Below are positions 1,988 to 44,468 of a stretch of 64,000 bases of DNA, in pieces. Every line of letters starts with the position of its first letter. Position 1 is the stretch's first letter. This DNA comes from Hypomesus transpacificus (lineage: Eukaryota > Chordata > Actinopteri > Osmeriformes > Osmeridae): the NCBI RefSeq assembly GCF_021917145.1, contig NC_061081.1, positions 7,321,153-7,385,152 of the forward strand, given 5' to 3'. Under the pieces are notes generated by a model. It had not been told where the DNA came from. It did no database searches and worked only from the letters and a program-made list of their open reading frames with translations. A program made the position numbers and the translations under genes.

Positions 1988-4306
1988 ATGGCAAAAATCT
2001 ACTTTCAATTGTTATTACTTGGTGTAACACTTTGTATGACTTCAGCTGAAAGTAAGTTTATGAAACTTTTTTTTAAATTGTCTGGAGTACCTCGTGGCTT
2101 TGCTTTCATTGTGTTATTGTAACAGTAAGAATTTGCCACCCTACATTGGCCAAATGTTTAATTTCTTAGAGATTTTGTCATGTTAGAATGTTCACATAGA
2201 CACAAATTATGATCAACTATATATTTGTTTTGTCATATTTAGTATGATGTCTTATTTCAATGTTTGATTACCCAGTTGCTGTTTTGTTTGTGTTTTGCTA
2301 TTTGGGTGAATGTATGGAAGACTGGTGTGTCATACAGGTGCAGAAGGCTACTTTTAGAACAAAGACCACAAAAAATCTTAGAACGTTTACATTTGTATCT
2401 AATAAACCATGCCTGAATGACCTCTGTCACTCCTAAGATGCTGACCAGTAGCCATTTTTCTCTTAGACCCAAACTGCAGTATGCAAATGGACGAAGGGAC
2501 CGGAGAAGAGTCTAAACTGCAGTACTTCTATGACCACAGTACTGGATTCTGCATGCCTTTCTTCTACAAAGGACAGGGAGGGAATGACAACCGATTTCAC
2601 AACGACAAAGACTGCATGGAGTCTTGCTCCTCCAAGTACAATGATCTGTACCCAGCTAAAGGTAGGCAGACACCCAGCCATGCCCGTGGCCATTTTGTGA
2701 GAAGTGAGGTTTAATGAGGAAGAAGGCGGGAAGGAAGTTAACGTACCAAACTTCTTACATTTTAGAGTTTGACCTGTACATTGATTCATGTTTTTTGTTT
2801 GCAGTAAATGATACAGTAAATTGTAAACTAAACTCAATGTTTTACCCAGATTGTTTATACAATTAATATCATACTATTTAACTAAAGTCTTGCCTAAGAA
2901 TTATTTTTTATTTTGCCGCAAAAATGTTTGTTCATTTATCATTTTTTGTATGAGGTTAACTCATAATTTTAAATTAAGGCATTACAGTTGCACTTATTTG
3001 CAGTTCAATTTTCCCACACTGTTTATATATTTTAAGTACTGTACTGTGGTCAATGTCAATTTAATCTACATGTTTCCTGTTCTTCCTTTCTCCCAGATGC
3101 TTTATGTAGCCTCAAAGTAGACCAAGGCAGCTGCTTCGGCGTGCTCCTGAGGTACCACTACAGCCCAGAGGACAAGAACTGTCGTCTATTCATGTACAGA
3201 GGCTGCCAGGGCAATGGAAACCGCTTTGAGACCAGAGAGGAATGCCAGGATATCTGCATGGGTTGGTTATCAATGTTTGTCATATAGTGTGTATATTACT
3301 ATATGACAGTATACTAATATATTAGCAAATATTAAGAATGCACTTAAAAAAATATGTAAATGACTAATAGAGTACTGTGAGGTAAACAAAAGGGTTTTGG
3401 TGTATTTTGAATGTTAAGTAAACAAATATATTGAGGTATTTGCAATGAAAATATTGCAATCTTTCCAATTAAGTTATTCTGCAGAAATCACACATTTCGC
3501 ACAATTCCCTATTGTACCAGGGCTGTCCAACCAGAAACCCACATCATAGCTCTCCAGGAACAGGGTTGGGCAACTGCAATAAAACCACATTATTCAGCTC
3601 CTTCCACCTGGCCATGCAGTTGCTCAGTTGTGCAGTTCCTGTTGTATCCACAAGAAGTCTCACCATGACCACTGATAGCATTTTCCTGTATGTACTAATT
3701 GAAATGAGGTGTGCTCCTTCTCTACAGCACGATCAGGCAGGATTGGGGCTGGGGCAATCCCTAACCCAGATCAGGCCACCACTGATGCAGGTATGAAATG
3801 GTTGAACATAAAAATGTGATTGGGTTCAATTATACAATTGGATACATTTGGTTAATTTAAATTGTTCTCAAGGGTTAGGTTTACATATGAATTTGAACAT
3901 TTAATTATCTTTGAAATCTTAATCCTTGCTTTTGTTTTTGTTTTGTCTCAGGCTTGATTGTGGGAATTCTGGGAGGAGTAGTTTTCACAGTTGCTGTGAT
4001 CGCTTCTATTGTTCTTATTGTCAAACAAAAGTAAGAAAAGTAGATGTTTTAGTAACATTTAAAGGGTTAAAGCATGTGAGAAAGGAAGGGAAGGGAACTC
4101 ACGTTTGCTTTGATACTGTATGCAATCCACAGTACAGGAACAGATACAGATTTTTGTAATCAATTGGTTTAAATGTAATTTAATAGTAACTCTTGACATT
4201 CAGATGACAGAGTAAAACGATAACCAGACAACCTTCTCTCCTTTCTAGGAAGGAGAAAGACAACAGAGGAAAGAGACAGCCAGTGCCGGACATTGAAATG
4301 AACTAG
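1988..4306 (+). CDS. Two-Kunitz type I membrane protein (SPINT2-like layout)
   Basis: Six exons: 1988-2051, 2467-2661, 3097-3261, 3728-3790, 3952-4030, 4249-4306; 207 residues, all phases agree. Order: signal peptide (about residues 1-20), Kunitz domain 1 (25-75), Kunitz domain 2 (90-140), short Gly/Ala/Pro spacer, membrane segment (about 164-186), basic cytoplasmic tail. This is the layout of HAI-2/SPINT2, an inhibitor of cell-surface serine proteases. Domain 2 has all six cysteines (90, 99, 115, 123, 136, 140) and Phe100 at P1, suggesting chymotrypsin-like rather than trypsin-like targets. Domain 1 keeps Cys25, 50, 71 and 75, but the Cys14 and Cys38 positions of BPTI are Gly34 and Gln58, so it lacks the disulfide that braces the inhibitory loop and is probably not a canonical inhibitor. 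I do not know the orthologue name. It could be a diverged spint2 relative or a fish-specific gene. Confidence 0.85.
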
Positions 4307-6995: not shown

Positions 6996-9900
6996 ATGGT
7001 GGAGTCGCTCTGTGAAGATTTGGCAGCGTTGTCGGACTTGGATGAGAAGAGTTTGTTGGAGTCCCTGACTCGACGTTTTAATCAAGATCGCATCTATGTG
7101 AGTGAACAAACAGGCTTAAAATTTCACGTGAACTCTGCTGTTTCACCCACATTTGAAAAATGTAATTGTTGCCTAAGTCCTTTAGAAAAACAGACATTTT
7201 CATATTCTGCGACGATAGTTAAATGTTGAGATTTTGTGTTCATAGGATGGGCTACTAAACGTTCTCTTCTTTTTCAAGTGCAGTAGGCTACGTTCCACGT
7301 CAAGGGAAATTATAAACCCTTTGCCCTGTCTTGGTATTTGTTATATAGTGCCATTCATGATGGCTTTGAGAGATGGGTAAAAAGAAAAGCTACTAGATCT
7401 AATTGCACATACTTTTTTACCATACACCGGTTCATTGCAATAGGATTAGCCTGCACGATTGCCACTCTATTGCGTTTAGTTCCCAGTGCTTTTAACACGT
7501 TGCTAAATTCTTCCAAGCAAAGCTTTTATTATCTCCATGTTTTGAGAGGTGGGTTTATCAACCGATATTTAGTGAGGGTTTACTGGAATCTCACCGAGGG
7601 ATTATTTTCTGTTTGTGAAGAATATAAAAGATTTGTATGAAAACACGTCAGCCGTTGCTTGTAAACTAACATTTATTTATTTATTATGTCGCCTTTCTTC
7701 AGACCTACATTGGGGACATCTTGGTGGCCATCAATCCCTTTAAATACCTCCCTCTTTATGAGAAAAAAGTAAGTACTTCCACAAGACAAACAGACTGTTT
7801 AGTTGAGCTGGCAGGTTCTCCTGAAGGCTGGCCTGTTCATGACTCAGTCTGACAAGGCTAATTCTCCCTTTTGTCTACAATCAAAGATTCCTCCCCTGTA
7901 GGAATGCTTTTGTCTGGGATATACATCCACACTTTACAGTATGTTTTGTTGAACAACATTTTCCCAGTTCTCTGTATTGTATAAGGAGACATATGCTAAT
8001 TGTGTAACAAATGAAAAGTGCTAGTTTTATTTCCTTCTCTAACATCTTGCCTGAATCTGGACACAGGTGTCAGAGAGCTACAAGTGCCATGAGAAAAGTT
8101 CACTACCACCTCACATATTCGCTGTGGCAGACAGAGCCTACCAGTCCATGCTTGGACGTCTGGCCACAGAACCACAGAACCAGTGTATTGTTATCAGGTG
8201 GGTGCTACAGTATGATAATGTGAAGAATACTCAAACCAATGCAACTATGTTCTGCCCAGCCCAGGCTTATGCAATCCATTTAATCTCAGTTAAAGCATTA
8301 TAATAACAATGCGACCCTCCCTTCTTTCGCCATAGGGATGGATACAATAAATGATTATAGTAAGAACTTGCAGGTCTGCTGTATGAATATGTTGTCAGTG
8401 GATTAGCACTGCTGCAGTTGGGCTAGCTGGTGTGTTTTTTTTGTGGTCACATAAACACCAGTCTTGTCATGTCAGCATGACCTTTCAACTTGAATTGTGG
8501 ATAAGTTGTTGAGGAAACAGTTTTTCTGGTGTGCCTGGCTAAATTGAGTTTTGTTTGGTTGCACCAGTATTTTTCATATCCAGCAGTTTATTCTTGTTCA
8601 TTTCCACTTCCCCTTGCTGTCTTGTTCTCATTCTCTACCACTCTTCATCCAGCACTTACTAGCAACCTCCATTTCTCATCATTGTTGGCTCACGACATCT
8701 CTACAGAAAAAAAAATCCTTAAAATTATATTTCTTCAGTTTTATGAAACCATAATTACTTTTCCACTGTAGGAGGGAGGCTTGGTTTGGTTTACACGTGA
8801 CTCCAGAATCAAGCAGAGCTTTTCCACTGTAATATGTGAATATCTCCCTAAGGATGGAGCATACACTGAAACACTGCTCTTGCATAAACCTACTGCACAA
8901 CCACTGTAAACATGGCTGAGGAAAGGAAGTTCACCTCAATGGATTTAGCAGCAGTGAAGAGTAAAAGAAGCCTTTCTAAATATATGCTTCTGCCTTTAAA
9001 TGATATCAAACACAAATGTAATTTATTTCTGGCTTCAAAACTGTTGGTGGGGTACTTCATTGTAAATGAGCATGTCATTATAAAAAAAAAGCAGCAGTAA
9101 AAAAACTCTTAAACTCGTAAAATTGCAAATGTCTTTTTGTTCAACATTCCCATAGATTAGCTATGTGTGTGCTGAAGAAAGCATGAGCTGGCCTCAAATC
9201 AGATCAACAACAATTTTGGTGCACTCTTCTACTTGTATTTGTGAAATTTAGCGATGTTTCTAATTTAGTTGCTTACTTTCCCTTTTTATCATAGTTAGGG
9301 GGGGGGGGGAGAAACAAATCTTTAGTGACATGTAGCTATAAATGCAAGATTTCAATGAGTTAGTATCCCAAATTGGCAGTTGTTTTTAACCAGTAACGAA
9401 GTCTACTGAAGTAATTTACAAAGGGTCTTCTCATCCTTTGTGATTTTTTTTGTGGGCAGCCTCCAGTTTCTGTCTGGGCGATACGATAGGTTGACCCTAA
9501 CATTGTATAAACAAAGACACGTTTGTAGTTTTCTCCATCCATACATCTGGGTTATTTAGCCTTTCTCCCATTGTGTGTTAAGCACACTGGCCTCTTGGTT
9601 CCAGCAGTCTTTGAATGGGCCCTGTCACCCTGGGTTACAACAATGTCACTGACCAATGAACCGGTCAGCCACTCAGGGTTTGTAAGGGGCTAAAGCGATA
9701 GTTGCCATTGGTGATAAAAGGATGTAGTGGTGGTAGTAGTAGTGGTTTTATTTCAGCCATTATCAATAATTTTCCAAAGTATATGCATATATCTAGGTTT
9801 TGTTTTTTATATACCTATTCACCTTAGTTGATATTGGCTCTGTCTTACTTCCGACAACCTCTGAACACAGGAAGAAAATTGTGTTGTGCTTTATACCTTA

Positions 9901-12900
9901 TCAGTTAGGGGAAATGACTCCCACACATTAGTGACCATGCCCTTGGAATCAACCCATATCACATTTTACCCCATGCCATGTTTTTCTTATTCCCTAAGAA
10001 GTGTAGAATGCTAAACGTGCTTGTACACACACAAGAAAGCATGTGCACATTTGTGAGCCTCATGCAAAAAACTTTTTAGGGTGAATTAATATCAATTGTT
10101 TATCAGCTTGGTAGGCAAGCATTCATGGCTCTTGTAATTTGGCTGCCAAATTATTTCCAGTCCTGGATCAGAAGCAGTCTCAACTTGTTTGTGAACAAGC
10201 ATGTTCAGGCCTAGCTAGCATGGCATTGTGGATATCATGTTTTTTCTTTTCTTTTCAATGCATTATTTTAAATGTATGTGTTGTTGTTTTGTTTCTTTTT
10301 TACAGTGGAGAAAGTGGAGCTGGAAAGACTGAAAGCACCAAGCTACTGCTCCGACACATCATGGAGTTATGTAGGGCCAACTCCCAACTGGAACAACAGA
10401 TACTACAGGTAGAATATTGTATAAAAATGAAGAATAACCAAGCAGCAATGTAGTCCTCTTACCCTTTATAAGGGTAAGTCATATCAATAGTACTCTAGGG
10501 AGCAGGCTGGGGTGATGTGTGAGATTAAGGTGGGTCAGTTTTTCAAGTCTGTGTATGTTTGTTAACCATGGTTCACTATTACTGCACGCTTCTCAGGCTT
10601 GTAAAGTAAGGCGTTGGCGTTGTCTCTTGAGCTGTGATCAGCTGCTCTACCACTGAGCTGTATTCACGTCATATCCCAAAATGTTGAGTAATTTATGACA
10701 ACCCGGTATGTTTGTACTGCCTTTACTCTCAAGTAGATTTTCTGGTTGGACTTGTAGCACTGCCTTACAGGTTGTAACGTGATCAACGTCATCTAGTCCA
10801 GGAATGCGTTTTTCTACATTACAAGCAGTTTGTTTATTGACTTTAAGCAGCCAACCAAGGAGTCTTTGGTGGAAAGATTATTGGAGGTTCAATATCAAAC
10901 TGTTAATAGCCTCCGATTAGGTTAATGTAAAAACAATTGCATAGTTGCGGTTGTGCTTTTTCTTTCGAACCATTTATGCTGTTGTGAGGGGAAATTGCAT
11001 TATCCTTAGAAGGAAATTGGACGCTATGGAGATATGCAAGATGAGATGTAATCCTAAAACGGAACTGCCCCTGTCTTTTTCTGTCTGGAATTGTAGCTCA
11101 AGGTTCGCTCCAAGGCTATGTAAACAAAGTAGTCTATATGGATTAAGGCTTGTACTATTCTCCTATTTCAAGTCTTTCTGTACATTTCCCATACAATTTT
11201 TTTAATACAAACATCAACATTAACCTTGGATTTTTGATAGATTGGCAACAACCCATTGGGAGGAAAGGGAGATTATTCTAGCCCCTTTGAACCTCAAATG
11301 CAATTCTAACTTATAGATCTCTATATTTGAGCTGTTCCTAACACTCAAACCTATCACTCTTCTGAGTCAACCAGTAGCTCTTTTCCTAACCCCTTTCAAC
11401 CACTTGATACTGACTTGGTATTTCACAACAGAATGTTTTTTGCTTCTGTCTTTACATCCCATAGCTTCCCTGTTTGTGTTTGGTAAATACTCTGATTACT
11501 GATGACTCTCCAGTCTTCATTTTCGCATGACTTTGTGCCAGGAGAAATTCTCAGTAGGAGAGGAGATGATGTGGGACCCCTAAAACTTGAGTGAGTTTGG
11601 AAAATTCCAATGGCTCTTCCTAGAAAATGCATTTAAACTTCAGTTGAAGTGAGTTGTTCCATGGCTGTGAGCTACACTGCTCTGGGGTCAGGAGTGTGTG
11701 TGTGTGTGTGTGTTTACACACACTACATCTACAGCCTATATGTAGATGGTGAGTACATCATTTCATTAATCTGAGGTAGACAGTATGTAGCCAAATACTA
11801 TAATAAACCTAATTGAATGTCTTCCAGCTAATTCAAGGGAACACTAGACATTTCAGACCAGTGCATATACCTTGCGTACTTTAGCACAAAGTCACAGAAG
11901 GAGTGGCTAGCATGACACATTCTTCCAGTATAGTGGAGCTGTTAGGGAGTAGGCCTTTTTGCAATTTCAGGTTTTCCATTTCCACCTACTGTTTTCTGTG
12001 TTCTTTTGATCTGAACCAAGCTCAGTTGCCTGGCCCATATAAACTAGCTTGGATAGGGCCAGTTTAGTGTTTCCCCTAGGTGTACAGCTTTGGGGGGGGG
12101 GGGGGGTAACTTGCTAATGCATGCACATTATGTGTTTGCTGCAACACCCTCAGCACACCTAGTTCCCGCGGCAATGGGTATTCCCTCTCCACTGAAATCC
12201 AAAATTCAGCCAGTGTCTTGGCTGAAAACGCTGCCTTTAACGTTTGGTCGCTTGACAGTTCAACTAATGCGTCCTCCTGGTCGGATGTCAGATGGTTTAC
12301 CGTATTTACAGTGAATGGAAAATCAAAAGGCTGATGGCTTTTTTATTTGCATGCACTAATTTAACTACTAACTTGTTAGATTTTGGGCTAAAATATGCTA
12401 TTTATAATTGTTTTAAAATGTTCCTTGATTTCTGGAAATCATCTCGCGACCCCCCCTCGCTGGTCGCGACCCCCACTTTGGGAACCACTGCTATAGAGAC
12501 AGAAATAACATGCCGTCGTGTAAAAAGATAAATAACATAAGGCCATTTAGTCTGTTTAATAAAAGAGCAAGCTATAGACCTATAGGAAAGGGAACCTTAA
12601 ATGACTTATTTTGTGATCTGGCGCTATATAAAAAAATTAACTTGACCTTACAGGGCCACCCCCCTTCATATAATGGTAGGGGAAACACTGCAGTTGTAAC
12701 ATTTCCACACACATTTTCAGTGAGGAGGAAATCCTGTGTTACCGGTTTAACTTGTGAAAATATGTTCTGCAATATCTTCAGACACATTACTGTTCTATCA
12801 TCTGTCCTTAATAGTACAGTAGTAGTGGAAGGTTACTGAGTGGGGTCAGCGCTTGAGTCCAAAGTTCAGAAGGTGGACAGCTGAGGGAAACCCACTGGAG

Positions 12901-15900
12901 TGATAGCAGAGGGTTCTGTAACACTTTACAGATGGAAGGAGAGTATGGACTAAATGGATACTCCATAGGTTGTACTAAATTGATCAGTTTATATTGAAAT
13001 CAATTTGTGTTTTCAAATCAAGTGTTTCCATAAATTAATTTTGTGCAAATGTTTCCATAAGCGTTTCACTGTGTTTAAAAAAAGATTCCAGCCACGTTAC
13101 TAGGCTCCAGACAGTCATTTCCAGCCATTGTACTAGAATCGGAGTTCCTCTACTTTAATAATGTTGTGTTTTGTCATCCTTAGGTGAATCCTCTTCTAGA
13201 AGCTTTTGGCAATGCCCAGACTGTCATGAATGACAACAGCAGTCGTTTTGGAAAATACATTCAGCTGCGCTTCTACAACTCTTCAGGTGGGTCACATGTT
13301 TGTGTATGGACCTTGTGTTGATCATGTGTGAGCAGCTCTCTGTGTGTGTATGTCTACCAGCTGTGTAAGCTTTCTTCTCTCTTGGAGCTCTCTGTGTGTG
13401 TATGTCTACCAGTTGTGTAAGCTTTCTTCTCTCTTGGTAGTCTTATTGTATTTGTAGTCACTGTCTGTCTCGGTCTCAACAGTAAAAGGTGCCAAGATCA
13501 ACGAGTATCTGTTGGAGAAGTCTCGCGTGGTCCACCAGGATGAAGGAGAGAAGAACTTCCATATCTTCTACTTCATGCTTGCAGGCATCTCACCAGATGA
13601 CAAGGAGATGTATGGCCTTCTGGATCCTACACAGTACAGGTGGGTCACAGCCTAGGGTTGGGCGAAAGGCACACGTTTTCCAAATTCAAAATGTTGTCAA
13701 CGGTCACTGCATCTATCGCCGATAGCTGATGGTAGTTTATGCTGTTGCATGTACCCTTGTGTAAAGTATTAGAAAGGAAGCCTGTGTGAATGCATCAAAG
13801 AAAGTTCTGTAAGACTGGGGTATGCAGGGTTTCCTGCAGTACTTTTCAATTTAAGGCGGCCACCTAAGCAACACAGTTTTGCAAAAAGTTTATTTTTATT
13901 TTTTTAATAGCAATGTCTGCCGTGTTACTCTGTCCTGTTTTCTCCCTTCCATTCCAAAATGCCAATCTCCCTTCTTTGCATTAGTCTATCGCACAAACTA
14001 GCCTCCCGTGCATTAGTCTATTGCATGCCTGTGCAGGTTTGTTTGTATATAATGTGTTGGCTGTCTGGAAGGGATACCTTTTTGTCTATAGAATCTGTAC
14101 AAAAATAAACCAATTAGAATATGTGTTAGGTATCTGGACGGACGCTTCGGTTCTGAAGATATGGGGAGCAGGTGGAACGAGAAGTATCGCGAGGTGTGCA
14201 ACGCCATGGATATGGTGGGCTTCGAGGAACAGGTAAAACCTCAGACAACTGGATATTACAATCCTCACTGTTTTCACAAATGCCGAATTGTACTGTACTA
14301 GGTGCTTTTGTACATGTGCGGTACTATGTTTCCCTTGTTGTGTTTGTTGTTTCCTCATAGGAGCTGCAGTAGGTGAATTGTTCTTGTGAATGAGGACAAT
14401 TAGTTTATTATTTTCTAATCTGCCAAATCTTTGTTAATTATATCATGTATTTTTCTATTGACAGTTTTGTATTTCTTAAAACAGTGAATCAGTCAATTGG
14501 TTTCCTTGAATGATTGATATGCTTGACAAATGAAACATCTGTATTTTGTTGTCTATCCAGGAAAAAGTAGACATGATGACCATTCTGGCAGGAATCCTGT
14601 CTCTGGGCAACACTATGTTTCAACCCACCGACACAGACAGTGTCAAGGTCACAGACAAGTCCATGGGCTGGCTCAAAGCTACTGCTGTAAGTCACGCTCT
14701 ACAATTTTCAGTCAGTCTGGCTTTTTTAGGCTGGTTGGGATATCAAGGTTGTTTAGTTGGATTAAGTTGGTATGTTTTGTGGGTTGGTGGGGGGTAAACT
14801 TGCTGGGATAGTTTAGTTTATTTGGTTGATTAGTTAGTTGGGTGAGTTTAGTTTAATCTAGAGCTGCCTCCATATTCCTCAATTCTCTTTGGATCTGTAT
14901 GGGATGATTTGGTAAGATTATTGGATTGATTAGGAAGGTTAAGTCCTGTGATTGCTACCTATTCTCCCATTACATTTGTCATTCTTTTGTTATCAGACAC
15001 TCCTGTTTTTTATTGGCCTGGTTAGAATAACTAACTTTTTACAGAACATAAATGGTGTTCCCTCTATGTTTTTGCCTTCAGCACTTCCTCTTTCAATTTG
15101 ATACAAATGGTACTGCATTTCATTATACATAACAACACAGTTTACCCGACAGTATATGGTTGGTTGTAAAATGTTTCAAAGGTTGGTGCTAGATAAAGGG
15201 AGGATGGTTTCTGTCTGACTTTTTGACACATTTGTCATCTGCAGCAGTCATGCGGTGAATGAAGGGTGTGTGCTCAAAAGCCAGAGGTGTGTGTTTATGT
15301 AGAGTACACCAACACAAAACGAAAAACTTTACACTGAGTGTACATTGGGTAAAGGTTATTGTTGATTTAATTGTTACAGTCCTCTACCCGCATATTGATC
15401 TATAATCTTTCCATCTGAAATGTATTTGTGCTACCGATGTACATACCCATTTGTCTATTTAGCACATACTTCATAGTGTACCTTTTGCATGTGTTTTTGT
15501 GAATGTGTTCATCAACTATTGTATAGTGCGCTAAAAAAATGAAACCCTATTTAACAGGTAACCATGTGCATGCCTGATCGCAAACCCATTCTACAACCAT
15601 TAATGAATCACTGCCCTTCCCCCTCTACCATCCACACCCTTTTTAAAGCAGAGCTTGAGCCTCATCTGGCTTGGTCTGATAAGACAAAATAGCCATTAAA
15701 GGTCACAAGGCTATGTTGGGAGAGAGGCACTGTGAACAACACTTCTAAGATTAAACTGGATCAGCCAACCCTTGTCCACTCCTTGCATTTCATTGTATGG
15801 AGCAGAGAGAGAGAGTTCAGTAGTACTTTCTTCATGCCTGGGGAAATGGCTGTTCTAGCTGTATTGACAAGCATAATACAAAATATACATGACGATATAA

Positions 15901-17186
15901 AATAAACAATGTTGCAGTAAAATGAGTCGCCAGAATGTTTGAGGGCTCTTTGTTCCTACTTCTCTCTGGTTAAGCTGTTGCACAATGTGTTTTCTAGTCC
16001 TTACTCCTTACAAGTAATGTCTGTCTTGGTACAAGGTAGTAGTTAATTAAGCAATATCACATGAGGGATTGCATTATTGATGAATATCAGCAGATCTGGG
16101 ATCCGCAGGTGACCGCATATTCATGTTGTGAAATAAACATCATCTTCATTATTTTATTGTGGAAAGAGCTCAGGGAGTGTGTTGACAGTCGTGTGTGTGT
16201 TTGGGCCCCCAGGGTCAGTTTGGGGTTCAGGAGGAGGAGCTACTGAGGAGTTTGACCTGTACCCTGACCATGACCCGAGGTGAGGTCATCCGTAGACTTC
16301 ATAACCAGCAGCAAGCTGAAGGTGAGAACCAACACAGAATCTTTTCAATGTCAGCATGTTAAAGGAGTACACTTACAACAGACCCTCAATGATGCAATTG
16401 CCCTAGTCACTGGGGTTGCCTGAGGGCACAGTTCCTTTGTGAAACTGATCCCAGAGGGTAATAGGATGGTATTTGCATAGCTTTTAATGTTTTTCCTTCT
16501 GGATTTGACATAATTTATGTGTTCTGTATGTCTAGATGGATACATGCAATATCTAGGATATAATTGTCTGGGGGCATGTCTCACATAAATAACTTACAAA
16601 CTATGGACAAATTGTCTCCACCATGCCAAAAACATCTGAATTTGCTCGACTAGAGTTGCAAATTGAGATGTCATGTTTTTCTGTCACAAATGCTGCTTTT
16701 AAGTTTTGTTCATGTTTTTGTAAATGCAGATGCTAGGGATTCTATAGCTAAAGTGGCCTATGGGAGAGTGTTTGGTTGGATAGTCAGCAAGATCAACGAA
16801 CTTCTGGCACCAAATGTTGATCTTGAGATGCATGAAATAGGTGAGTTTATAAACCTTCTAAAAGTTTTCCTTTCTTTTGAGTATGTAGATATTTCACTAA
16901 AGTGTATTTCTTCCAGGTATTCTTGACATTTTTGGATTTGAAAATTTTGCTGTAAACCGTTTTGAGCAGCTTTGCATCAATCTGGCGAATGAACAGTTGC
17001 AGTTCTTCTTTAACCATGTAAGTATAAATAGAAGCAGCAGATGGAAGTTGCCCTGTTATTAAGGGACCCAGCCATGCATGCTTTAACTGTCATTTTAGAA
17101 GGACTTGAAAAGATATGTTACAACCCAAACTCTTAAACAAAAGCTAATGACCTAAAAAACTAAAACAAATGTGCGGGTAACACAGG

Positions 17187-17237
<51 letters not shown>

Positions 17238-20200
17238 GATATTGATGCTTTTTAGTTTAGTAGTTTTAAGGTTAGGTACCAGGTGTGTACACATATACAT
17301 AAACATTATAAAAGTATCTTAACCACTGCCATTAATCACCTCCAAAAAATGCTGTGCAAGTACCCGCATTTTCAGTCAGCTCTATAACACTGCACTAATC
17401 CATGTGCTACAGTACAAACAGGCCAGACAACAATAACACCCAGCTGTATCCTTACTCCCTAACCCACCTCTATGTTCTTACTGCATCAGACCTCTGTGAA
17501 TCCTCTGTTTTGGACCAGAACATGTTAATCAGAAAAGGGGATGTTAGTTTAATATCTTTACTTTTGGGTCAAGCATAACCATGTCATGATGGTGTTTTTT
17601 CCTCCTCAGCATATCTTCCTGATGGAACAGAATGAATACAAAGAAGAAGGGATCCAATGGGAAAACATTGCCTTTAAAGACAACAAACCTATACTGGTTA
17701 GGGATGCTCAACACCATCTTTATCTTCACCTCTTATGTTTCCTTTCTCATACACTCATCTGCACCTCATTTCTTTTCTTGTTCTGTTGCAACTTCTGTCA
17801 TTCTACTAATAGCCCACTGTGCGTTTTGTCTCTCTGCTGACAGTATGGTTTAGTTTAGAGCACACACAAACACAGAAGAGGCCATATGCAAACATACCAG
17901 AAGTTTGTGTATGTTAGTTATCTGAATCTAGAGGGGAGACACTTGTTTAATTTGGCAAAAACTATTTTATTTCTCCGTAGCTTAGCTGAAGCCACATGAT
18001 AGACAAATTATTGTTTAATTTGGTTCGCTCAAGTTTGCATGTATTTCATTGGTTGTCAACAAATGTCTGTGACCAGCTGCTGTTGTACCCTAAATGATGT
18101 CCCTTACCCTCCTTGCAGGACCTCTTCCTCACAAAGCCCATCGGCATACTGTCTCTCCTGGACGAGCAGAGTGCCTTCCCTCAGGTAACCTTGCTAAATG
18201 TTCTCCAAACAAAGTGTGGCATGCAAATATGACGGTGTTTTCATTTGAACAGGAGGAGTGATTTACACAGACACTCTAACCACCCTCTTTCTTCTTCTTT
18301 GTTAGGCCTCAGATAAAAACTTTGTGGAGAAGCTGAACAGCAAGTTCAAAAGCAATCCCCACTACGAACTGGTGCGCAGTCACAGCCCACTGTTCACCGT
18401 GGTGCACTATGCCGGGAAGGTGACAACCATTTGCTACTACAACAAATCATTGTATTAATTGGGGTGAACACCCCTGCAAATGAGATATTTCTGTATTTTG
18501 TTATCATAAATTATTTTCTTTGTCGTCAATATACAGTATGGGGTATTGTCTAGGCGGTTTGGAAAAAAATTGTTTTGCAAGGTAAAAATATATTTGTGTA
18601 CAAATAATTTGTTGTGTGGGATTGTTCTTCAGTGATTTGTGTGTCCTTTCCTCAGGTCCAGTATAACGGGAAGGGTTTCCTGGAAAAGAACCGAGACACT
18701 ATTCCAGCCAGTATCAGAGGACTCTTTATCAACAGTGTTACTCCTCTCCTCAGTGTGCTCTTTGCAGGTGAAAAGGAGAAGTTGAAGGGATTACTTTGAT
18801 TCAGAGTTCAATCTCTAAAGGCCATTTATTGAAAATAGTGTTGTACCCCTTAATTTAAAGTGTGTGCGTGGTTAGCTGAGGTACTATGATGCTATCATAC
18901 ACTACTCATTTGTAGTGTATAGCTAAAGTGAACTGTAGGATGCACACACACCCTGCATGTGTTTTTACTGGGTCAATGAGGTAGATGTAGTTTATTGCTC
19001 TTTACTAAAAGTTTAATTATTATCAGTTTGGTGTCTTGAACTTGAATCAAGTGTGATTCACATTCCATGTGTTTTTCAGCCACCATATCCAGAACAGGGA
19101 CTCTGATGCCCCGCAAAGCAAAGGTGGGCACTTTTGTTGGTCTCATTTCACAGAGGAAAGCATCATATGATAGTTTGTGTAGTAGAAAGCAGACTGGCTG
19201 GAAAATAGTAGGTAGACATCAGGGGTTATTGTGAGATGTTCTTAACTACATTTTATTTCCTTTCAGCTCCAACAGAAAGAGGATGACAACTTCAATTCTA
19301 CCAGGAAACATTCTGTAGGGGCTCAGTTTAAGGTATGGTAGGAATTAAAGCAAATCAGTCTGTCACAAATTTCAAAGCCATGTGCAAGTTTGTATTTCCA
19401 TCACATGCCTCCAATTGCAGACAATCATGGATAATGAAACCCTGTGCATCTCTCTAGCATTCCTTGGCTGTGCTGATGGAGAAAATGTTTGCTGCCAATC
19501 CTCACTTTGTTCGCTGTATCAAACCCAATGGCAGTAAGCTGCCAGATCAAGTGGACAGCAAGCTAGTCATGGACCAGGTGAGGAACAAAACACATTACAA
19601 CACCAATCTTCACTACAATACCATTACTATACAACAGTACAATAGGCAGGCTTGTCTAGGGCCATATTTCAAGTTCAAAATTATACTGTAGAGGTGGATT
19701 AAGCAGCAACCAGGGCCATTTTTCAGTGGCATTTTAGCCTCCCTTAACCTGATGGACGGGTGAAGCTTGTTTTTGAGCTGTCTGTCTTGTCCCATTGTAC
19801 TCTAATGACCGACATCAAATGTCTTAATGACTCAATTAAGTACATGTTCTAGCCTTTTGGATACACGTTCTTTCATTCTCAACATAGTAAACCTTTTAAA
19901 ACGACTAAATTTACCTTGTTTCTTCAAATATATTTTATGACCAACCGTGAGGGTGTAGGTCACTCCACCATATAGTTGTGATTCCACTGTGCCCTGTAAG
20001 GAAAGTAATCAGTGGCTGGTAAGCCAGACAGTCAGCTAGCTTGTTAGGTCACAGGGTTTCCAGTTGGCTGGCTGTCTGTTAATGTCAATGGAATTCTGCC
20101 TCGGGAGGTTCATCCTTAACACAGCGAAGAGGGGACATTGTTCTCTAAACATTATAGTGTATAGCCTGGAGGGGTGTTGTCTATTAATGACATACATGGT

Positions 20201-23200
20201 CCTGTAAAGTCATTTGAGCGGTTCAATTAATATCTATTTTGTAGTTTGTCTTATTAAAGTATTATTATTATTATTATTATTACAGTAGTACTTCTTATTA
20301 AAGTATTAGATACTCTTTACATCGTTTTTTCAAGATCTGTAGCGCATGAGAATGCAATAAAAATGTAGTCATGTACCCCTGATTCAGCTCTACAGCTTAA
20401 TACGCGTCAGTCAAAAAGTGTCATGTGTCTTTGTCACTGATTTGAGGCATATTTTTTACTCTTTATTAAGCAGTTGTTAAAATAAGACAACCCCAACTGC
20501 TTTCTGATCTGTTTGAATTGACACTGTGCTATATGGCCCCCTGCAGTTCAGAACTGTTTGAATTGACACTGTGCTATATGGCCCCCTGCAGTTCAGAACT
20601 CGCATTGCACTCATAAATGGGTGCATGGAAATTGAATGCAAAATATGAGCGGTGGTTTCAGTGCTGTGCTTAAGAAATCAGTGCAGATATTTTAGTAAGT
20701 GCCAGTGGCTCTTATGTAATGTTGATTTGAACCACACATCTTCTATTTTGCAGTTGAGATATAATGGCTTAATGGAGACCATTAGGATACGAAGAGATGG
20801 ATTCTGTTGGCGGCCCACCTTCCAAGAATTTGCAAAGAGGTGTGTGTGTGTGTTTGTGCATGAGAGTGAAAGAAGGAGTTATATATCTCTGTGTATATAA
20901 CATGAGTGGTGTAGCACTGACATGCAGGTTTGTTATCACACTGAGTCTCCTTCTCCTCCAGGTACAACATCCTGCTAGTAAAACCTGATTTACCGCTTAC
21001 CAAAGAAAGGTAAGCACTTCATTATTTATTATTTAAGGATAGATGTACTCTTTGTATTTTGTGGAAGTGTGAGGATGCAATGGTAGCCTAAACTAAAACA
21101 TGGAGGCTTACCTTTTCACAGTGCACTTGATGTTTAGTTGAACACAAAATACAGACTGGTCTCAAAGTTACTTGACCCTTTTTTTATTGTTCTTTCCTCA
21201 GCTGCATGTCCATTCTTAATACTACTGAGATCCATGGCTGGAAGTGTGGGTAAGAATGCCCTCCACACCAATTCAATGTTGGGATTTAATTTGGGTATAA
21301 ATGTAATTGTTTTGATTTCAGTTATGTGTCAGCAGCTGACTCTGTCTTACTAAAGTGTTGCTGCACATACAGATTGCTTGTCAGTTTATTATCAAGGTTC
21401 ACAATTTACAATAACCCTTTGATTAGAGGAGTGGAGGTAATCCTCTGCACCAATCCTGTGCACTAAATAAGAAGTCATGCTACTTTTAGTATTTATATTT
21501 ATTTATTCAATCTTCTCTTTTTCCTTCCTCTGTCTCTCTATGCTCCGGCAGTTCGTCTCGTCTGTTCTTTAAGCACTGGCACCAGGACGACTTGGCCAGG
21601 CTGCTGGAGAGACTGGGCAGAGCAGCCCTCATCATCCAGAAATGTGATGAGCCTCCCAAGCACATGATAATGTTGTCAATACTGTAGAACAGGGCTGACC
21701 AACCCTGCCTTGAAGATCTGTTGTCCTATAAGTTTTCATTTTAACTTCAATCCAGTACACCCTATTCTAATGTGCTGGTTGACAACCGTAATCATGTTTG
21801 TCACAACTGGGGTTGGAGTGAAAGGTTTTACAGAAGGGTCTCCAGGATCTCTCCAGGAGCAAAGTTTGTCAGCCCTACCATAGATGCATGCTTTTGCCCT
21901 TTTGCCAATAGACGCAATGCTTTTGACATGAATGCAAATCTGTAGAAATAATCTTGTAATGATTAATATTAATGTACTTTTTAGAAACAAATGTAATACT
22001 GTGTACATGTATGTACTTGCAAAAGTTCATCTTGTACATTCATGGCTTTGTTTATGTTTCGTTAAAAAAGTGCTCAACTGCCAGTCAGAAACCAGTCAGT
22101 GTAGTTTTATTGGTTTGTGACTGTGAACCCTGAAGGTAAATCTCTTTTCTGATGTGTACACTATAGTGAAGACTTGAATTAAACAGCACATGATGGGACA
22201 TGATTGCACAAAGAGACAGTTTTTCAATCTGGGTACACAATGTTACCCTGGCATCTAGGCTTGGCAGACTAAAAGACTATTGATATCTCAATCGAGCATC
22301 ACCACCATTACTCAATGGTGGTACAACCAACAAACAGCAATGTGTACTCATGCACTTGCTAGTAGCACTAAAACTCAAAGATCCTGCAGGGTCCATTTTA
22401 CCATCTGTGATTGTATGGGAGGCACTTCAGATTAGGAGATAACTGTCCACTCAATTTCTTTAAAGCAAAAACAAAATATATAAATTATACAAAAAACTAT
22501 AAATGTGTCTATTTTCTGCAGACTACCGCACTTTTTGCTGCAGGAGGATTTACCTGGCTCTGCTGGTGGAATTGCGCAAACAGAGACAGGCCCAAAGAGA
22601 GGGTGAGGAAAGGGAAGCAAGGGAGGAGGAGGAGGAGAGGAGGAGGACAATATTGCTGGAGGAGGAGATAAAGAAGCGTCTGGAAATGGAACAAGAGAAC
22701 AAGAGTGAGTTTTTTTTTCTTCTGAAAATGTTCCTTTCCTCATGCTGTTTTACTCACACATCCTCTTTTCATGCATTTTGTTTACTTCTGTCTGTGTTTG
22801 TATATTTGTCACTTGTATTCTATCTCTGTATCACACAGGAAATGATCAGGAATATTGGTAGTATCAATATCGATAACAAAAATAGAACTGGTTTGTAGTT
22901 GGGTTGTTTGAATGGTTTGTTGCCTTCCTGTGTGTGTTTCCCAGGACCAGCCTCTCCACCTGTCCCCCTGCCCAGGAGCAAAAAGCCCCAGCCAAAGCCT
23001 CGCTCCATCCTCGTTGGGATCGGGGGACCCAAGGTTGCACCTGTTCCTCGACCCCGCAGTAAAATGTTAGAGGTGAGTTGAGATCATAGATTGTGGTTAA
23101 GGTACAAGATTTAAGATCAAAATACTAGTGTGGTGGTGTAACATATCAACATGTTATTCTCAACCACTGGCTTGCCACTTCCGCCCTTTACAACTCAGGT

Positions 23201-25919
23201 TATCCTAACCTATCACATCAACCTCATGAGTTTCTATTCAAAGTCTTCCTCTTCTGTCTGTTTTGTTTCATATCGGTCATTCTCCCTCACCAAGGCCACT
23301 CCCTTCGACAATGCTTTGGACGGTCCGTTAAACACCCACATTGCAGAGCTGGTGGGAGGGGCAGGGAGCGTAGAGGAGCGGGCGAGGGAGAGGAGCACAA
23401 AGAGGAGGAACACCATTCGCTGGTTTAAGGAAACGCAAGCACGTAAGGTGATGCGCGACGGAGCCTTCCCCGGCTGGTTCCATGGCATGATCACACGCAG
23501 GTGAGAGACAAAGTGGGGGGTGACGAACAAAGGGTTTAGTCTGTCTCTTCATTAACGGAGTGACCGTTGAGTTCTCAGTTTTGTAATCTGCAAATTGGGA
23601 GTGAAAGAGATCTCTGACAATAGATGAACACCAGGCTTTGATCTCAATCATGTCTCACTCTGCACTGAAGGCCAGCGGACAGTGTTCATAGTGAATAGGG
23701 AAAAACAAAGAACATACAGCCTACAGCTGTATGTTATTGTAGGCAGGCGGATACTACATCATGGAACTGTGACTGTCATCAGAACACAGTCGGTTACAGT
23801 AGCAACACATGCATATGAATGGGTAATAAGACAGAGGATTGAACAGATGATAAGGGTAACAGCTGATTTTGATTAAAATAAGCACATAGGAAATCCCATT
23901 TTTTCCACAAGGTTCTTCTGATTCAGTGTGAGAATTCAGTGAACAGACAATTCATGGTTGCTGTTTAGTTTTAACTGTCATTGGTCGGTGTGTCTCTGAT
24001 TTATAGACAATCTGAGGACCTGCTGACAGACAAGCCTGTCGGATGTTTCCTGATCCGAGTGGGACAAAGCCGAAAGGGTTACACACTGTCATACAGGTAA
24101 GGCTAAAGGTAACGCATACACTGTCAAAAACACTCCTAAAAAGCTTTTGGGACCAAACCCTCTTACCCCATGACATGTGACTTCTTCCTGTGTCCAATCA
24201 GAGGGGAGAACCGCTGCAGACACTACATGATTGACATGCAGTCCAATGGGAAGTATGTGATCCTGGGTGAGGACCGTGCCCACTCTTCCCTGCCTGACCT
24301 GGTGGAATACCACAACCACACTGGCATCAAGCCCTTGATGGAACTGCTCACCAGCCCCTGTGGACAGGTGGGGTCTATACTTTTATACTATTCTATACAC
24401 ACGGTTATGGTGTGTGCTGTGTGTTTATATAGTCTATTCTTTTTTGTTCCTTTCAGTAAAAGTTTCTTGAAGGATGGGGGTATAAAAAATAAGAATTCAG
24501 TGTTTCAATTTCCTTTAAGTTTACTACCTTGTTCCCTACTCAAACCCATGGGCAATATAAATAACTTCTTGGGCCTTTTTGCACCAAACCATGACGAATA
24601 ATGACATCAACAACTATTAATTGTTCATGTGTTTTTTCCAGATGTGTGACCAGGAGCCAGACTACGAGGAGCTGAAGGGCATTCACCCCTTCTACCGGTC
24701 CCTCCAGCCTGGGGAGGAGTTGGTGGAAGAATCCCAACCAGACCAGATCCACCAGGAGTTTCAGCGTCTCTTTGTGCCCCCAAGTCAAAATCCTAGTTCT
24801 GACAACCGACCTCCGGTCCTTCGGCGGATCTCTGACCGCAGACATAGGATGGAAGCTCAGGGAGAGAGCTGGGAGGGCAGACTCCAGCAGGGTAGAAGTG
24901 TTGGAGGGTATGATGGTGAGGGTGAGAATAAGAGGACATTTCCCAGGCTGTACCCATCTATAAGGCTGGCTATGCGGGAGATTCAGCATGTGCAACAGGT
25001 GAGATATTGTGATCGATAAGACTTTTTCTACAGGGATCCATAATATATTTATATATCTGAGAAATCCGCCAAAGCGACTGAGAAACTGCAATACAAGCCT
25101 TAGAAAAACATCACCAAGGAGCCTCAATAGAGGGTTATTATATTTAAGCCACTTTGTGTGAGATGCATAAAAACTTGCATCCGACATGTCAGTACAAGTG
25201 CCTTTGCGGAATTTACCAATAAAGTTGCCACTGCAATTTTAGAGCAACATGATGTAGGACTACAGCTCTTGCTGGGACATGTCTTTCAATATTCCAATAC
25301 AATGAGTTCATTTGAATTTGCTGATTTTAAAAACAACAACTTTGAATTGGTTAGGTATCAGTAAACTATTACGTTCTTCTTTTATTTTCAAGCCCATTGG
25401 GGTTGGAAAAGAAATGTGGTTTAGTGGTGTCTAAATCTCTCTTTCCTGCCCTTCGATCTCTCTCCTCCTCAGCACTTCTCAGGTAGTCTGGATCAGTCTT
25501 CTATCCCTCACATTACACCTTCCTGGAAGAGGCCTGGTAGGTCATGGGACAGAATTTTAGTGCGTCTGCATATTTAACTGAGTTGCATTTGTTATGGCTC
25601 GCTATTCAGTATAAAAACCGCCCACCCGCAGCATCTAATTGCTAGCTTTTTGGTGGCAGAGCTGGATAAAGCGTTGTTTGAGAGGTAATCATTGCATGTG
25701 TGAGTCAAGAGGACCTTAGATTGAACCCCAGTGTGGGCAAGAAAGGGAGGAAGCGATACTGACAAGCGATGGAATGACACCAGTTGCACATGTTGTCGAT
25801 ATTCACATCTAATCCTACCTAGTCTTGAATGCGTTGATCTGTTCATGATACTTAAGGCATAATACAGTAAAGAGAAACATTTTTCATGTTGTATTTATTT
25901 GTTTCTTGCAGATTCCTAA
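6996..25919 (+). CDS. Unconventional myosin with C-terminal SH2 domain
   Basis: 30 exons, all in phase, 1098 residues. Exon starts: 6996, 7703, 8067, 10306, 13184, 13483, 14130, 14561, 16213, 16730, 16917, 17610, 18119, 18306, 18656, 19080, 19267, 19458, 20754, 20962, 21202, 21552, 22522, 22945, 23295, 24007, 24202, 24642, 25473, 25912. An in-frame TAA lies two codons before the ATG, fixing the start. The motor (about 5-665) has P-loop GESGAGKT (101-108), switch [10 protein letters not shown] (150-158), switch II DIFGFE (374-379) and an acidic TEDS residue (Glu321), so it should be an active actin-dependent ATPase. One IQ motif (about 692-711) precedes a Glu/Arg-rich helix (to about 758), a proline-rich linker (764-802) and an SH2 domain (863-956, Arg888 in FLIRVGQS). 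There is no N-terminal kinase, unlike class III. I recall an SH2-bearing metazoan myosin class (possibly XXVIII); the exact class is unsure. It likely couples phosphotyrosine signals to actin. Confidence 0.92.
12065..12690. mobile_element. hAT-like non-autonomous element in myosin intron 4
   Basis: The left end TAGTGTTTCCCCTAGG and the right end (reverse complement CAGTGTTTCCCCTACC) form inverted termini typical of hAT elements. A second hAT-type end (reverse complement CAGTGGTTCCCAAAGTGGGG) at about 12470-12489 suggests a nested insertion. No transposase frame is present, and the flanking 8-bp duplication is not clean. Confidence 0.5.
13334..13437 (+). repeat. 52-bp tandem duplication in myosin intron 5
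   Basis: Two nearly identical 52-bp copies (13334-13385 and 13386-13437), each starting AGCTCTCTGTGTGTG and ending in CTTCTCTCTTGG, differ by one base. They sit just before the acceptor of exon 6, and the copied unit contains part of a pyrimidine-rich tract. Confidence 0.85.
17189..17235 (+). repeat. (GT)n microsatellite, myosin intron 11
   Basis: About 23 uninterrupted GT units. A shorter GT tract also occurs near 11697. Confidence 0.95.
20509..20598 (+). repeat. Perfect 45-bp tandem duplication, myosin intron 18
   Basis: The unit starting CTGTTTGAATTGACACTGTG and ending GCAGTTCAGAA occurs twice back to back (20509-20553 and 20554-20598) without mismatch, so the duplication is recent or has been homogenised. 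Confidence 0.9.
21691..21876. mobile_element. Short inverted-terminus element in myosin intron 22
   Basis: The left end AGGGCTGACCAACCCTGCC and the right end (reverse complement AGGGCTGACAAACTTTGCTC) form imperfect inverted repeats about 186 bp apart. A related end ('agggctgtccaacc') is seen at 3521 in the Kunitz gene intron. This is a common type of fish MITE. It begins only 47 bases after the exon 22 donor. Confidence 0.55.
23480..24367 (+). other. SH2-coding exons of the myosin gene
   Basis: The end of exon 25 (to 23500), exon 26 (24007-24096) and exon 27 (24202-24367) code for one complete SH2 domain: [16 protein letters not shown], the phosphate-binding [15 protein letters not shown] in strand D, then [20 protein letters not shown]. 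The RHYMI plus [16 protein letters not shown] pattern is closest to the SH2D2A/SH2D7/HSH2D group of adaptor SH2 domains. The phosphotyrosine arginine (Arg888) is intact. The SH2 exons lie between charged-linker and C-terminal exons in continuous phase, so this is not a run-on of a neighbouring gene. Confidence 0.9.
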
Positions 25920-27073: not shown

Positions 27074-27834
27074 ATGGATCTCAGGGTTTTTGCTCTAATG
27101 CTTTGTGCTGGTGTTTGGTTTGCTGATGTGCAAGGTAATAACATTTATATGTATTTAAAATTCTGAACTGTGCAATGTGAATGATTACATGGCCAGCAGT
27201 ATCTTACCACTTAGCTCTTCACTTAATCTAATTTAATTGTTATTATTTTGTATTGATGTAACCACCAATGCTTATTTTTAGGAGCCATTCCTAAATGTTG
27301 TGTTGCAACCTCAAAGCACTTTCCTCAGAGTTTACTAATGAGTGTGGAACGTTATGAAATGCAGAACAGCCATGGGCCATGTGACATTGAAGCCCTGATG
27401 TAAGTACACCACCCTAGTGGATTACATTTGACATAATACACTTGCGTGAATGATTGCTGAATGTTATGTTTCATAACTTAATACCGAATCAAATACTTTT
27501 GCATGATTACAAGAACACTTGAAAGCTTTCAAGGACATTCAATTGTTGACATCTCTATGCTAGTGGCCTTTTGTTCTATCTCTACAAATTTTTTATTGTC
27601 AGTACCACATAGAACTATTTTTGCATTTCCACAGACCATCTGTTTACCTTTTACAACATTTGCTCTAACAATCTCACTCTGTCTCCCTCTAGACTATATG
27701 CAAATGGTAAGAAATACTGTTCTGACCTAAGAGTGAGGAGGATCCTGAGAAGACTCAAGCAGATGAGGCATGCTCAGACAGATCTCACCCACGAGAAACT
27801 CATGTTGCAAGCTTCCACTTCAGTTAATTTCTAG
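27074..27834 (+). CDS. CC chemokine, CCL27/CCL28-like
   Basis: Three exons, 27074-27134, 27282-27399 and 27693-27834, in phase; 106 residues. Residues 1 to about 21 form a signal peptide (MDLRVFALMLCAGVWFADVQ). The mature protein begins near GAIPKCC, with the adjacent CC pair, then two further cysteines in GPCDIEAL and KKYCSDL that complete the four-cysteine chemokine fold. It ends in a basic C-terminal helix (RVRRILRRLKQMRHAQ). The three-exon structure with these phases is normal for CC chemokines. GPCDIEALIL resembles the CCL27/CCL28 pattern GDC-L-A-IL, hence the subfamily call; a CCL25-type assignment is the main alternative. Expected role: a secreted attractant for leukocytes acting on CCR10-like receptors. 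Confidence 0.8.
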
Positions 27835-30999: not shown

Positions 31000-32649
31000 T
31001 CAGCCCTCCTTCGCTTCCTCCTCGTATGCTTTGATAAAATCGCCAATGGTTTCCACCACGTAATCTGGCACGAAGTGCATCTTCTCTGGGTCGTCACTGT
31101 CCTTATAGCTCTGGGCCTCTTCCATGGTGGACACCCCTGTCAAAGTAAGCATGGTGTCCAAGCCACACTTAGCCCCAAACAGGATGTCCGTCTCCAGGCG
31201 ATCGCCAACCATAATGGACTGGGCTGGGTCCAGGCCGAACTGGCTTGCCATGCAATCAAACATGAAGCGGCTAGGCTTGCCAATCACTATAGCCGTCCTG
31301 CTGCTGGCCGTTTCCACGGCAGCCGTGAGGCTCCCCGATCCTGAGAGAGAGGAGTGAGAAGACGTTTCTACAGATTACCGATAAAATTTGTTAATTTGGG
31401 GGGGACGACGACTGTGTAGAAAGTGATTCCAGCCACACATATCAAACACCATACATTGTCACAAACAGTTAAGGATTGTGTGTAGCCTGACAAAAAGACA
31501 AACTTGTTTTTCAAACTGCATTCAATCCCGTTCTATAGAAAGCCACATCTATGGCCACAGCTAACAAATGCAACGAGAAATGCTGATGTGGCATTTAGTC
31601 ACCCAGTTGTTGTTCCAACAGATGCTCAACATAATGCTGCACGATTTTAAAGCAGTTTTACTAGGTCTCTGTTGTAGCCAGAAGATAAATGGCTATGGGA
31701 AACTCCATTAATCAAACAAATAACATTGGGTAGTATATGTAGTGATATTAATGCAATGTCCAAAGGCTCTTCCAAACTCCCAAATCTTTGTCTTGATGCG
31801 TTGAATGATTATAATTATGTTGCGTCATGTATAATTATTGTGTTGTGTTTGGCCTTTTTTATGAAAGACCAAAAGAGTTTGGTTAGAAACAGACTGCAGT
31901 TGAATTACTATTCTGAACTATTAAGTATTAAATACTTCTTAAGTAACTAAGAAGTATTTAATTCCCTAGTGACTAAATAAGGCTACAGCCTTCTTTCCCA
32001 TTGTAAATCCCATTCCATGCACTTCAACCCTTGGGGAGACAAACCTACCTGGTGTTATTCTACCACCTCGCAGAGGGTGCCAAGGGTCAGGGTCAGTAGC
32101 TACAAATAGGCAATTGGGGTTTTGTAAATAACAGGTAGCTTTTGCCAGTTTTATGAAGTTGAATTTTTCGTCATATCCAACAAGCACTGCCTTAACGTCC
32201 TGGTCCAATGGATAGTCGTAAATGGTCCCTGTTTGTGCGTCTTCACTCTCCTCCACTATGGGAACTCCGGCCTCCTGTAGCTCCTTCACAACCCCTTGAC
32301 AACCGATGACATACACCTTTCCCTGCACCTTCGCCACGTCGCGCAGGTAAGCTGCAGAGCAGTACGCAGAGCTGAATATATCTTCCTCATCCACATCAGT
32401 GAACCCCAAACGCGCAAACTTTGTCACGTAGTTAGCTCTGGGCCTGGTGCAGTTGTTAGTCACGAAAAATACCTTTTTGCCTTGCTGTTTCAATAGTGTC
32501 ACCACCTCTGGAGCGCCTGTCACCACCGTTTCGCCATTCCAGATGACACCGTCGCAATCGAAAAGGACGTTGTGCTTTGCGTCGAGGAGATCTCGTAATT
32601 GAGAACCTCTGATTTTTAAACACCCTCTGCTTCCCACCGCCCCTGCCAT
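31000..32649 (-). CDS. pdxp: pdxp, pyridoxal phosphate phosphatase / chronophin
   Basis: Two exons on the minus strand, 32649-32049 and 31340-31000, joined in phase; 313 residues. It is a HAD-superfamily C2-capped phosphatase. The nucleophile motif is FDCDGV with Asp31 and Asp33. GKPSRFMFDC and GDRLETDILFGAKCGL carry the catalytic lysine and the Mg-binding aspartates. VATDPDPWHPL and GSLTAAVETAS resemble PDXP (DPWHPL, GSLAAAVETAS) more than the paralogue PGP. The enzyme removes phosphate from pyridoxal 5'-phosphate and acts on phospho-cofilin. The start at 32649 has a good context (A at -3, G at +4); the frame stays open upstream without another ATG. A phosphoglycolate phosphatase (pgp) identity is the main alternative. 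Confidence 0.82.
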
Positions 32650-33365
32650 TCTGCACGGTGAGCCTAGAAAAAGCTCGAGTCCTGTTGTCAACAGAAAGGT
32701 ACAGTTACGTCACTCAAATTAAACGGGTAAGGTCGGTTACTGCACCTCTTTTTCCACCGGAACGTACACAGACGTAGCGTATGGCTATAATGGTACCAAA
32801 ATTAAAAGTCCTCGTTCTGATAGGTGGGAATCTTTCACTCTTTCCATCAGTGCTCACACAAGGGGCGGATACACTCACCCTATTCATTTTATTGGCCCTT
32901 GGATAGGAAGACCCGCCTTTCCCTCCCCTCTGCCCAATGTAATGGCGCACTGACTGAAACCAATACTAATCAATGATTACAACTAGCTACAACAGGGTTA
33001 TGAAATTGGGTGTAATTTGAGCAGATTGTAATTGTATGGACTGTGCTGTGTGCCTGGTTTGCGAGACAATTGCAAGTAGGCCTACTGTTTTGATTGGAAG
33101 ACTTGTCTAGGCCCTAGGATAGCAGGTGTTAAACGTCAATAACAACTCCTCGACATCTTATTCTATTGTGTAACATGAAAGGGAAATGATTGAAATTGAA
33201 TGGAAATAATTGTAGGCCTAATTATTCGGCAAATCAATCCTCTGTCTTTTTTTAACCCAACGTTTAATCATAACGTCGATGACATTTCTCCCGCCCAGAA
33301 GATGGCGATAACACACTAACAGGCAGTTTTATAGTGAGAAAAATGTCAGCCCCCTTGGCCATATT
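32650..33365. promoter_or_regulatory. Bidirectional promoter region, pdxp / setd9
   Basis: The start codons of two divergent genes are about 715 bases apart. The stretch contains CCAAT/ATTGG-type and GC-rich patches (around 32890-32930) near pdxp and AAGATGGCG at 33299-33307 near setd9, a match to the YY1 motif. No exon or repeat was recognised in it. Confidence 0.5.

Positions 33366-39158: not shown

Positions 39159-44468
<5,310 letters not shown>

Follow-up and report, generated by a model that had tools for sequence, protein, structure and literature searches.

The window, a 64,000-nucleotide stretch of the Hypomesus transpacificus genome (C22:7321153–7385152), holds an intact and complete myosin gene on its forward strand (6996–25919, +). 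Exons were re-derived by eye across window positions 6500–28000 and joined by script, which gives 30 exons, 3297 nucleotides of coding sequence and a protein of 1098 residues. The start codon lies at 6996 and the stop codon ends at 25919. All 29 introns are of the GT–AG type, and the joined reading frame has a single stop at its very end, while the two alternative frames contain 39 and 59. A continuous, phase-consistent gene of 30 exons had been proposed in a preliminary description of this DNA, and its coordinates proved exact. Chance matching and decay into a pseudogene were also considered, and both are ruled out by the one open frame across 30 exons and by the full-length domains it encodes.

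Other genes lie nearby in the window. Upstream is a Kunitz protease inhibitor gene with two Kunitz/BPTI domains (2445–3287, +; 56.9 and 71.5 bits). Downstream on the same strand, about 1.1 kb beyond the myosin stop codon, is a three-exon chemokine-like gene (27074–27834, +; Pfam IL8, 34.1 bits). Farther along, on the other strand, are a HAD phosphatase gene that by eye is of the phosphoglycolate/pyridoxal phosphatase type (31003–32709, −; Hydrolase_6, 106.2 bits, and Hydrolase_like, 70.6 bits) and the C-terminal exons of a MIER-type gene (39162–40328, −; MIER1_3_C, 186.7 and 53.5 bits).

The motor, the IQ motif, and the linker

Exons 1–22 (6996–21643, +) encode the motor domain and the first part of an IQ motif. 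The Pfam Myosin_head profile matches residues 7–675 over profile positions 2–679 of 679, with 730.8 bits against a cut-off of 33.3. The three nucleotide-binding motifs were located by pattern: the P-loop GESGAGKT (residues 101–108) in exon 4 (10306–10408, +), where the preceding codon, S100, is split by intron 3; switch I (residues 150–158) in exon 5 (13184–13286, +); and switch II, DIFGFE (residues 374–379), in exon 11 (16917–17017, +). The TEDS position is acidic (E321, 16 residues before DSIAK). Exon 1 leads straight into the motor, with no N-terminal kinase. Up to an E value of 0.001, Pfam finds nothing in the protein beyond Myosin_head and SH2, and there is no kinase among the six plus-strand open reading frames of at least 65 amino acids between 3036 and 6253, one of which is a Kunitz domain.

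The sequence IQKYYRTFCCR at residue 696 is the only strict IQ match in the protein. It is completed by exon 23 (22522–22704, +; motif residues 696–706), which continues into a charged stretch at about residues 715–758. Measured by composition over segments of 42 residues from positions 715 and 722, this stretch is 62–64% charged. Exon 24 (22945–23072, +) encodes a proline-rich linker with three PxxxPR motifs, at residues 765, 774, and 792.

The preliminary description had hinted at class III kinship, and this stands for the motor on a set of alignment columns that favors class III; the best solved-structure matches are of other classes. Those matches are myosin XV (552.9 bits), myosin X (535.2 bits), and myosin VIIa (520.9 bits), and no class III motor is found among the best 60 of 150. 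The same genome has a class III myosin gene, its class assigned by eye (C23:19386001–19397422), and this is the nearest motor found here. It is identical to the window motor at 228 of 411 columns, compared with 190 of the same 411 for myosin XV; the columns are those where all three motors could be aligned and were picked by class III matches, which favors class III and makes the difference an upper estimate. Across the complete motor, the window protein matches myosin XV at 277 of 658 residues. Two other loci, L031 and L032, are class I by eye and a third, L033, is class II, with no nearer motor among them; class IX, class I, and class II motors were compared as exon pieces only, outside the column count. 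Class III myosins are not known to carry an SH2 domain. They are characterized by an N-terminal kinase (PMC3942036), which was not found in the window protein. A motor nearer to class III than to myosin XV is as expected for the III-like group that has been reported to hold SH2-tailed myosins.

A further myosin locus of this genome, on contig C6 (L001; C6:12348042–12350066, −), encodes what by eye is a sarcomeric-type myosin heavy chain with the whole motor in one frame, intronless and retrogene-like. Its open frame runs to 1980 amino acids in the genome search and to 1311 within the locus stretch.

The SH2 tail and its relatives

The tail that follows the linker carries an SH2 domain spread over three exons. 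Exon 25 (23295–23500, +) encodes the motif WFKETQ (residues 845–850) and the start of the domain; the intron that follows it, after ITR, is in phase 2. Exon 26 (24007–24096, +) has the FLIR motif at 885, whose arginine is residue 888, and is followed at SYR|G by another intron in phase 2. Exon 27 (24202–24367, +) encodes the rest of the domain, including His 908 and Tyr 909, and ends in phase 0. Exons 28–30 (24642–25919, +) encode a C-terminal tail with a tyrosine motif, DYEEL (residues 963–967). The Pfam SH2 profile matches residues 863–938 over its full length (1–77 of 77; 62.7 bits, cut-off 21). The preliminary description had called for a Pfam check of a protein with an intact myosin head, one IQ motif, and an SH2 domain with its phosphotyrosine arginine; the full-length matches to both profiles, the motifs, and R888 bear that description out.

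By position in the translation, the residues that contact phosphotyrosine are present (R870, R888, and H908); we take these to be alphaA2, betaB5, and betaD4 of the SH2 nomenclature, and Y909 to be betaD5. In a published table, HSH2D is entered under group IC, with the site type pY-x-N and Tyr or Phe at betaD5 (PMC9783222). The tyrosine of the myosin tail at this position fits group I of that table. When the SH2 domain and its lead-in (132 residues) are compared with solved structures, HSH2D (2cs0) comes first at 102.9 bits. After it, among the best 60 of 234, come SYK, whose two SH2 domains together score 82.6 bits and the better of them 43.3, SHP2 at 56.6 bits, and ZAP-70 at 54.1 bits.

A search of the genome (437,198,280 bases in 376 contigs) gave 26 SH2 matches, of which 4 belong to the window gene, 2 to one gene on contig C4, and 20 to others; it returned no second copy of the myosin tail. 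Next after the window gene came the C4 adaptor, at 43–48% identity; ranked by score, that place goes to an SH2D4-like domain with 41% identity. The C4 gene has its exons within 7434245–7435102 (−), with lengths of 170, 90, and 184 nucleotides, and they read WFQKTQ...FATR|R...SYR|G...TPCDE| with intron phases of 2, 2, and 0. These introns fall at the same residues as those between myosin exons 25/26, 26/27, and 27/28, where the exons measure 206, 90, and 166 nucleotides, so that the middle exon is 90 nucleotides in both genes. The SH2D2 intron pattern used here, represented by this one adaptor gene, is a phase-2 intron at ITR|R, a phase-2 intron at SYR|G, and a phase-0 intron after PCxx. The first SH2 intron of the C4 gene is of the GC–AG type (GCGAGT), exactly where the myosin has GT–AG (L030).

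Reading frames near the C4 gene resemble, by eye, a DAPK kinase and SSR2. In the human genome SSR2 is a neighbor of SH2D2A, and the C4 gene is called SH2D2A-like because of the SSR2-like frame nearby. There is no motor match in 18 kb around it (best E value 0.63). About 5 kb from its SH2 exons is an uninterrupted frame of 372 residues that by eye resembles a Harbinger-type transposase (L029; C4, about 7428383–7429498, −).

In a control set, formed by the 14 of the 20 other SH2 matches that were given as loci, none has the ITR|R intron. Twelve of the 14 read through this point with six residues on each side, and the two SH2D4-like loci also read through, beginning five residues before it. The SYR|G intron is less telling, since 3 of the 14 loci end there and 11 read through. 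The SH2D4-like loci, on contigs C356 and C11 and named by eye, read through both intron positions internal to the SH2 domain. The C11 gene shares a related motif, WFKEEQ, before its SH2 domain, but its intron is placed elsewhere, 4–5 residues upstream of the first SH2 intron of the myosin; at C356, this motif was not found within the stretch examined.

In pairwise comparison, the myosin module aligns with the C4 module at 44.7% identity over 123 residues (117 bits) and with HSH2D at 47.6% over 103 residues (107 bits), compared with 67.0 and 55.8 bits for the SH2D4-like domains and less than 48 bits for all others. The C4 module likewise finds HSH2D first among solved structures, at 79.2 bits, with SYK at 44.2. 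An SH2 tree was built from 13 rows, with a PTPN-like domain (C370) dropped as too short and two SYK rows added. The myosin, C4, HSH2D, and the two SH2D4-like rows group together against the eight others with support of 90/91; SH2D2 and SH2D4 are not separated within it. A clade of the myosin, C4, and HSH2D alone is missing from the best tree and is not rejected (p-AU 0.204).

Set beside the SH2D2 adaptors, SH2D2A (TSAd), HSH2D (ALX), and SH2D7, the myosin tail has in common the WFxxTQ and SH2 module seen in the C4 gene, with an SH2 domain 45–48% identical to those of C4 and HSH2D. Its SH2 domain is closest to HSH2D and SH2D2A by pairwise score, and its introns match those of C4. The differences lie outside the module: SH2D2 proteins are small adaptors without a catalytic domain and the window protein has a motor, no motor lies near the C4 gene, and the tail that follows the SH2 domain looks different by eye. 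Judged on sequence and intron position, the myosin tail and an SH2D2 adaptor share one module together with its introns, and SH2D4 is a further relative. This build suggests a common origin of the myosin tail with small immune-cell adaptors. No kinship of this tail is stated in the open-licence papers found on SH2D2A and myosin, and it may be in print elsewhere. An Atlantic salmon paper, in the part available, concerns SH2D4A-like and myosin-Ib and not the gene in the window (PMC8285899).

Class XXVIII and the integrity of the locus

Class-XXVIII myosins were described by Odronitz and Kollmar in 2007 as having an IQ motif, a short coiled coil, and an SH2 domain, and were found in Nematostella, Xenopus, chicken, and some fishes (PMC2375034). 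The preliminary description stated that a broad myosin census lists SH2-bearing myosins, and this class bears that out. Kollmar and Muehlhausen (2017) report class 28 in Capsaspora and date it to the holozoan ancestor (PMC5583752), and Sebe-Pedros and colleagues (2014) place SH2-bearing choanoflagellate and filasterean myosins in a myosin III-like group (PMC3942036). Thin evidence of expression comes from a rohu kidney study, in which MYO28A, perhaps the counterpart of the window gene, is listed among the myosin genes responding to high salt (PMC9606766). Among the open-licence papers listed, none is a functional study of class-28 myosins. Drosophila Myo28B1 is another myosin, of class VII. 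Class 28 is the only animal myosin class known to have a built-in phosphotyrosine reader, and no human member is known.

The window protein has a complete motor, an IQ motif after it, and a C-terminal SH2 domain, and the gene looks like a class-XXVIII (Myo28) type, placed by this domain layout. Its charged stretch may correspond to the short coiled coil of the class. In this comparison by description, no feature examined sets the window protein apart from the class; its proline-rich linker and WFxxTQ lead-in go unmentioned in the available part of the class descriptions. The choanoflagellate and filasterean proteins, also compared by description, share the III-like motor, and in filastereans the SH2 domain is C-terminal as well; they belong to single-celled lineages and come with many other domain mixes (PMC3942036). 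A categorically new fusion was considered and rejected, since the class was described in 2007 (PMC2375034). The motor class is thus already catalogued, and what is new here is that its tail module, WFKETQ plus SH2, appears to be of the SH2D2 adaptor type.

The fusion could still be specific to this lineage, a class III-like motor having joined an SH2D2 adaptor independently of the class XXVIII of other animals. The SH2 module and introns common to the window gene and the C4 adaptor would be expected from such an event, but myosins of this layout have been described in Nematostella, Xenopus, chicken, and fishes (PMC2375034), the class has been placed in Capsaspora (PMC5583752), and the C4 adaptor sits elsewhere in the genome, in 18 kb that give no match to a motor, all of which make this origin extremely improbable. 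In the motor family search of the genome the window gene itself is not among the matches listed, so that search has no bearing on a second SH2-tailed motor.

The weakest point of the gene model is intron 22 (21644–22521, +). The donor of exon 22, AAT|gtgatg at 21644, scores 3.6 bits on a donor matrix, the lowest of the 29 donors, a score reached by 13% of all GTs on the plus strand of the window. Reading through this donor adds 14 codons before an in-frame stop, and intron 22 contains a single ATTAAA, at 22178. These features would suit two adjoining genes wrongly joined, a short myosin with its end in intron 22 and, downstream of it, an SH2 adaptor gene of its own; C4 does carry an independent adaptor gene with this SH2 module. 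Such a division is nonetheless highly unlikely: intron 22 splits the IQ motif and splicing to exon 23 restores it, the phases agree at junctions 22–23, 23–24, and 24–25 (1, 1, and 0), and the order of motor, IQ motif, helix, and SH2 domain is the published class-XXVIII layout.

The same donor, hexamer, and early stop could instead mean that one gene makes two products, the full motor–SH2 protein and a tailless short motor ending in intron 22. This is unlikely, as a single hexamer in an intron of 878 bases counts for little and the short form would break the IQ motif. The locus is read here as one gene, for which a short, motor-only form is possible.

Adaptor origins and a predicted function

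The shared module raises the question of where the adaptors came from. A tentative and rather doubtful proposal is that the vertebrate SH2D2 adaptors (TSAd/SH2D2A, HSH2D/ALX, and SH2D7), and perhaps SH2D4 as well, are headless myosins. They would have arisen as copies of a class-28 myosin in which the motor disappeared while the WFxxTQ–SH2 tail and its introns remained, and mammals would have lost the full motor. SH2D2 adaptors are not known outside vertebrates. With class 28 dated to the holozoan ancestor (PMC5583752), motor loss would be the favored direction. If this is true, T-cell adaptors would descend from a motor guided by tyrosine phosphate. The tail module offers an evolutionary test of whether TSAd and HSH2D, immune adaptors in humans, are what is left of a vanished motor.

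For the fish gene itself, the reading held with considerable confidence is that of an intact class-XXVIII type myosin whose SH2D2-type domain would dock the motor on tyrosine-phosphorylated partners, so that kinases would set where actin is pulled or tethered. With all of its parts intact, the head would be an ATP-driven actin motor, and the acidic residue at E321 predicts that heavy-chain phosphorylation at the TEDS site is not needed. One light chain would bind, and the short lever would be lengthened by the charged helix. The SH2 domain would then dock the motor onto tyrosine-phosphorylated membrane proteins or scaffolds, with pY-x-N as the predicted site type, given the class of HSH2D and the tyrosine at betaD5. 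The PxxxPR motifs may in addition recruit SH3 proteins. In this way, tyrosine kinases would decide where the motor pulls on, or tethers, actin.

Recruitment of an active motor to tyrosine-phosphorylated sites is the most likely role to be drawn from the sequence, and a link between actin motors and tyrosine-kinase signaling can reasonably be inferred from the intact SH2 domain. An intact fish gene makes possible a direct test of whether a tyrosine kinase steers a motor. The only Y-x-N in the window protein is Y937, and because it sits within the SH2 domain itself, the protein probably does not lock onto itself simply through pY-x-N.
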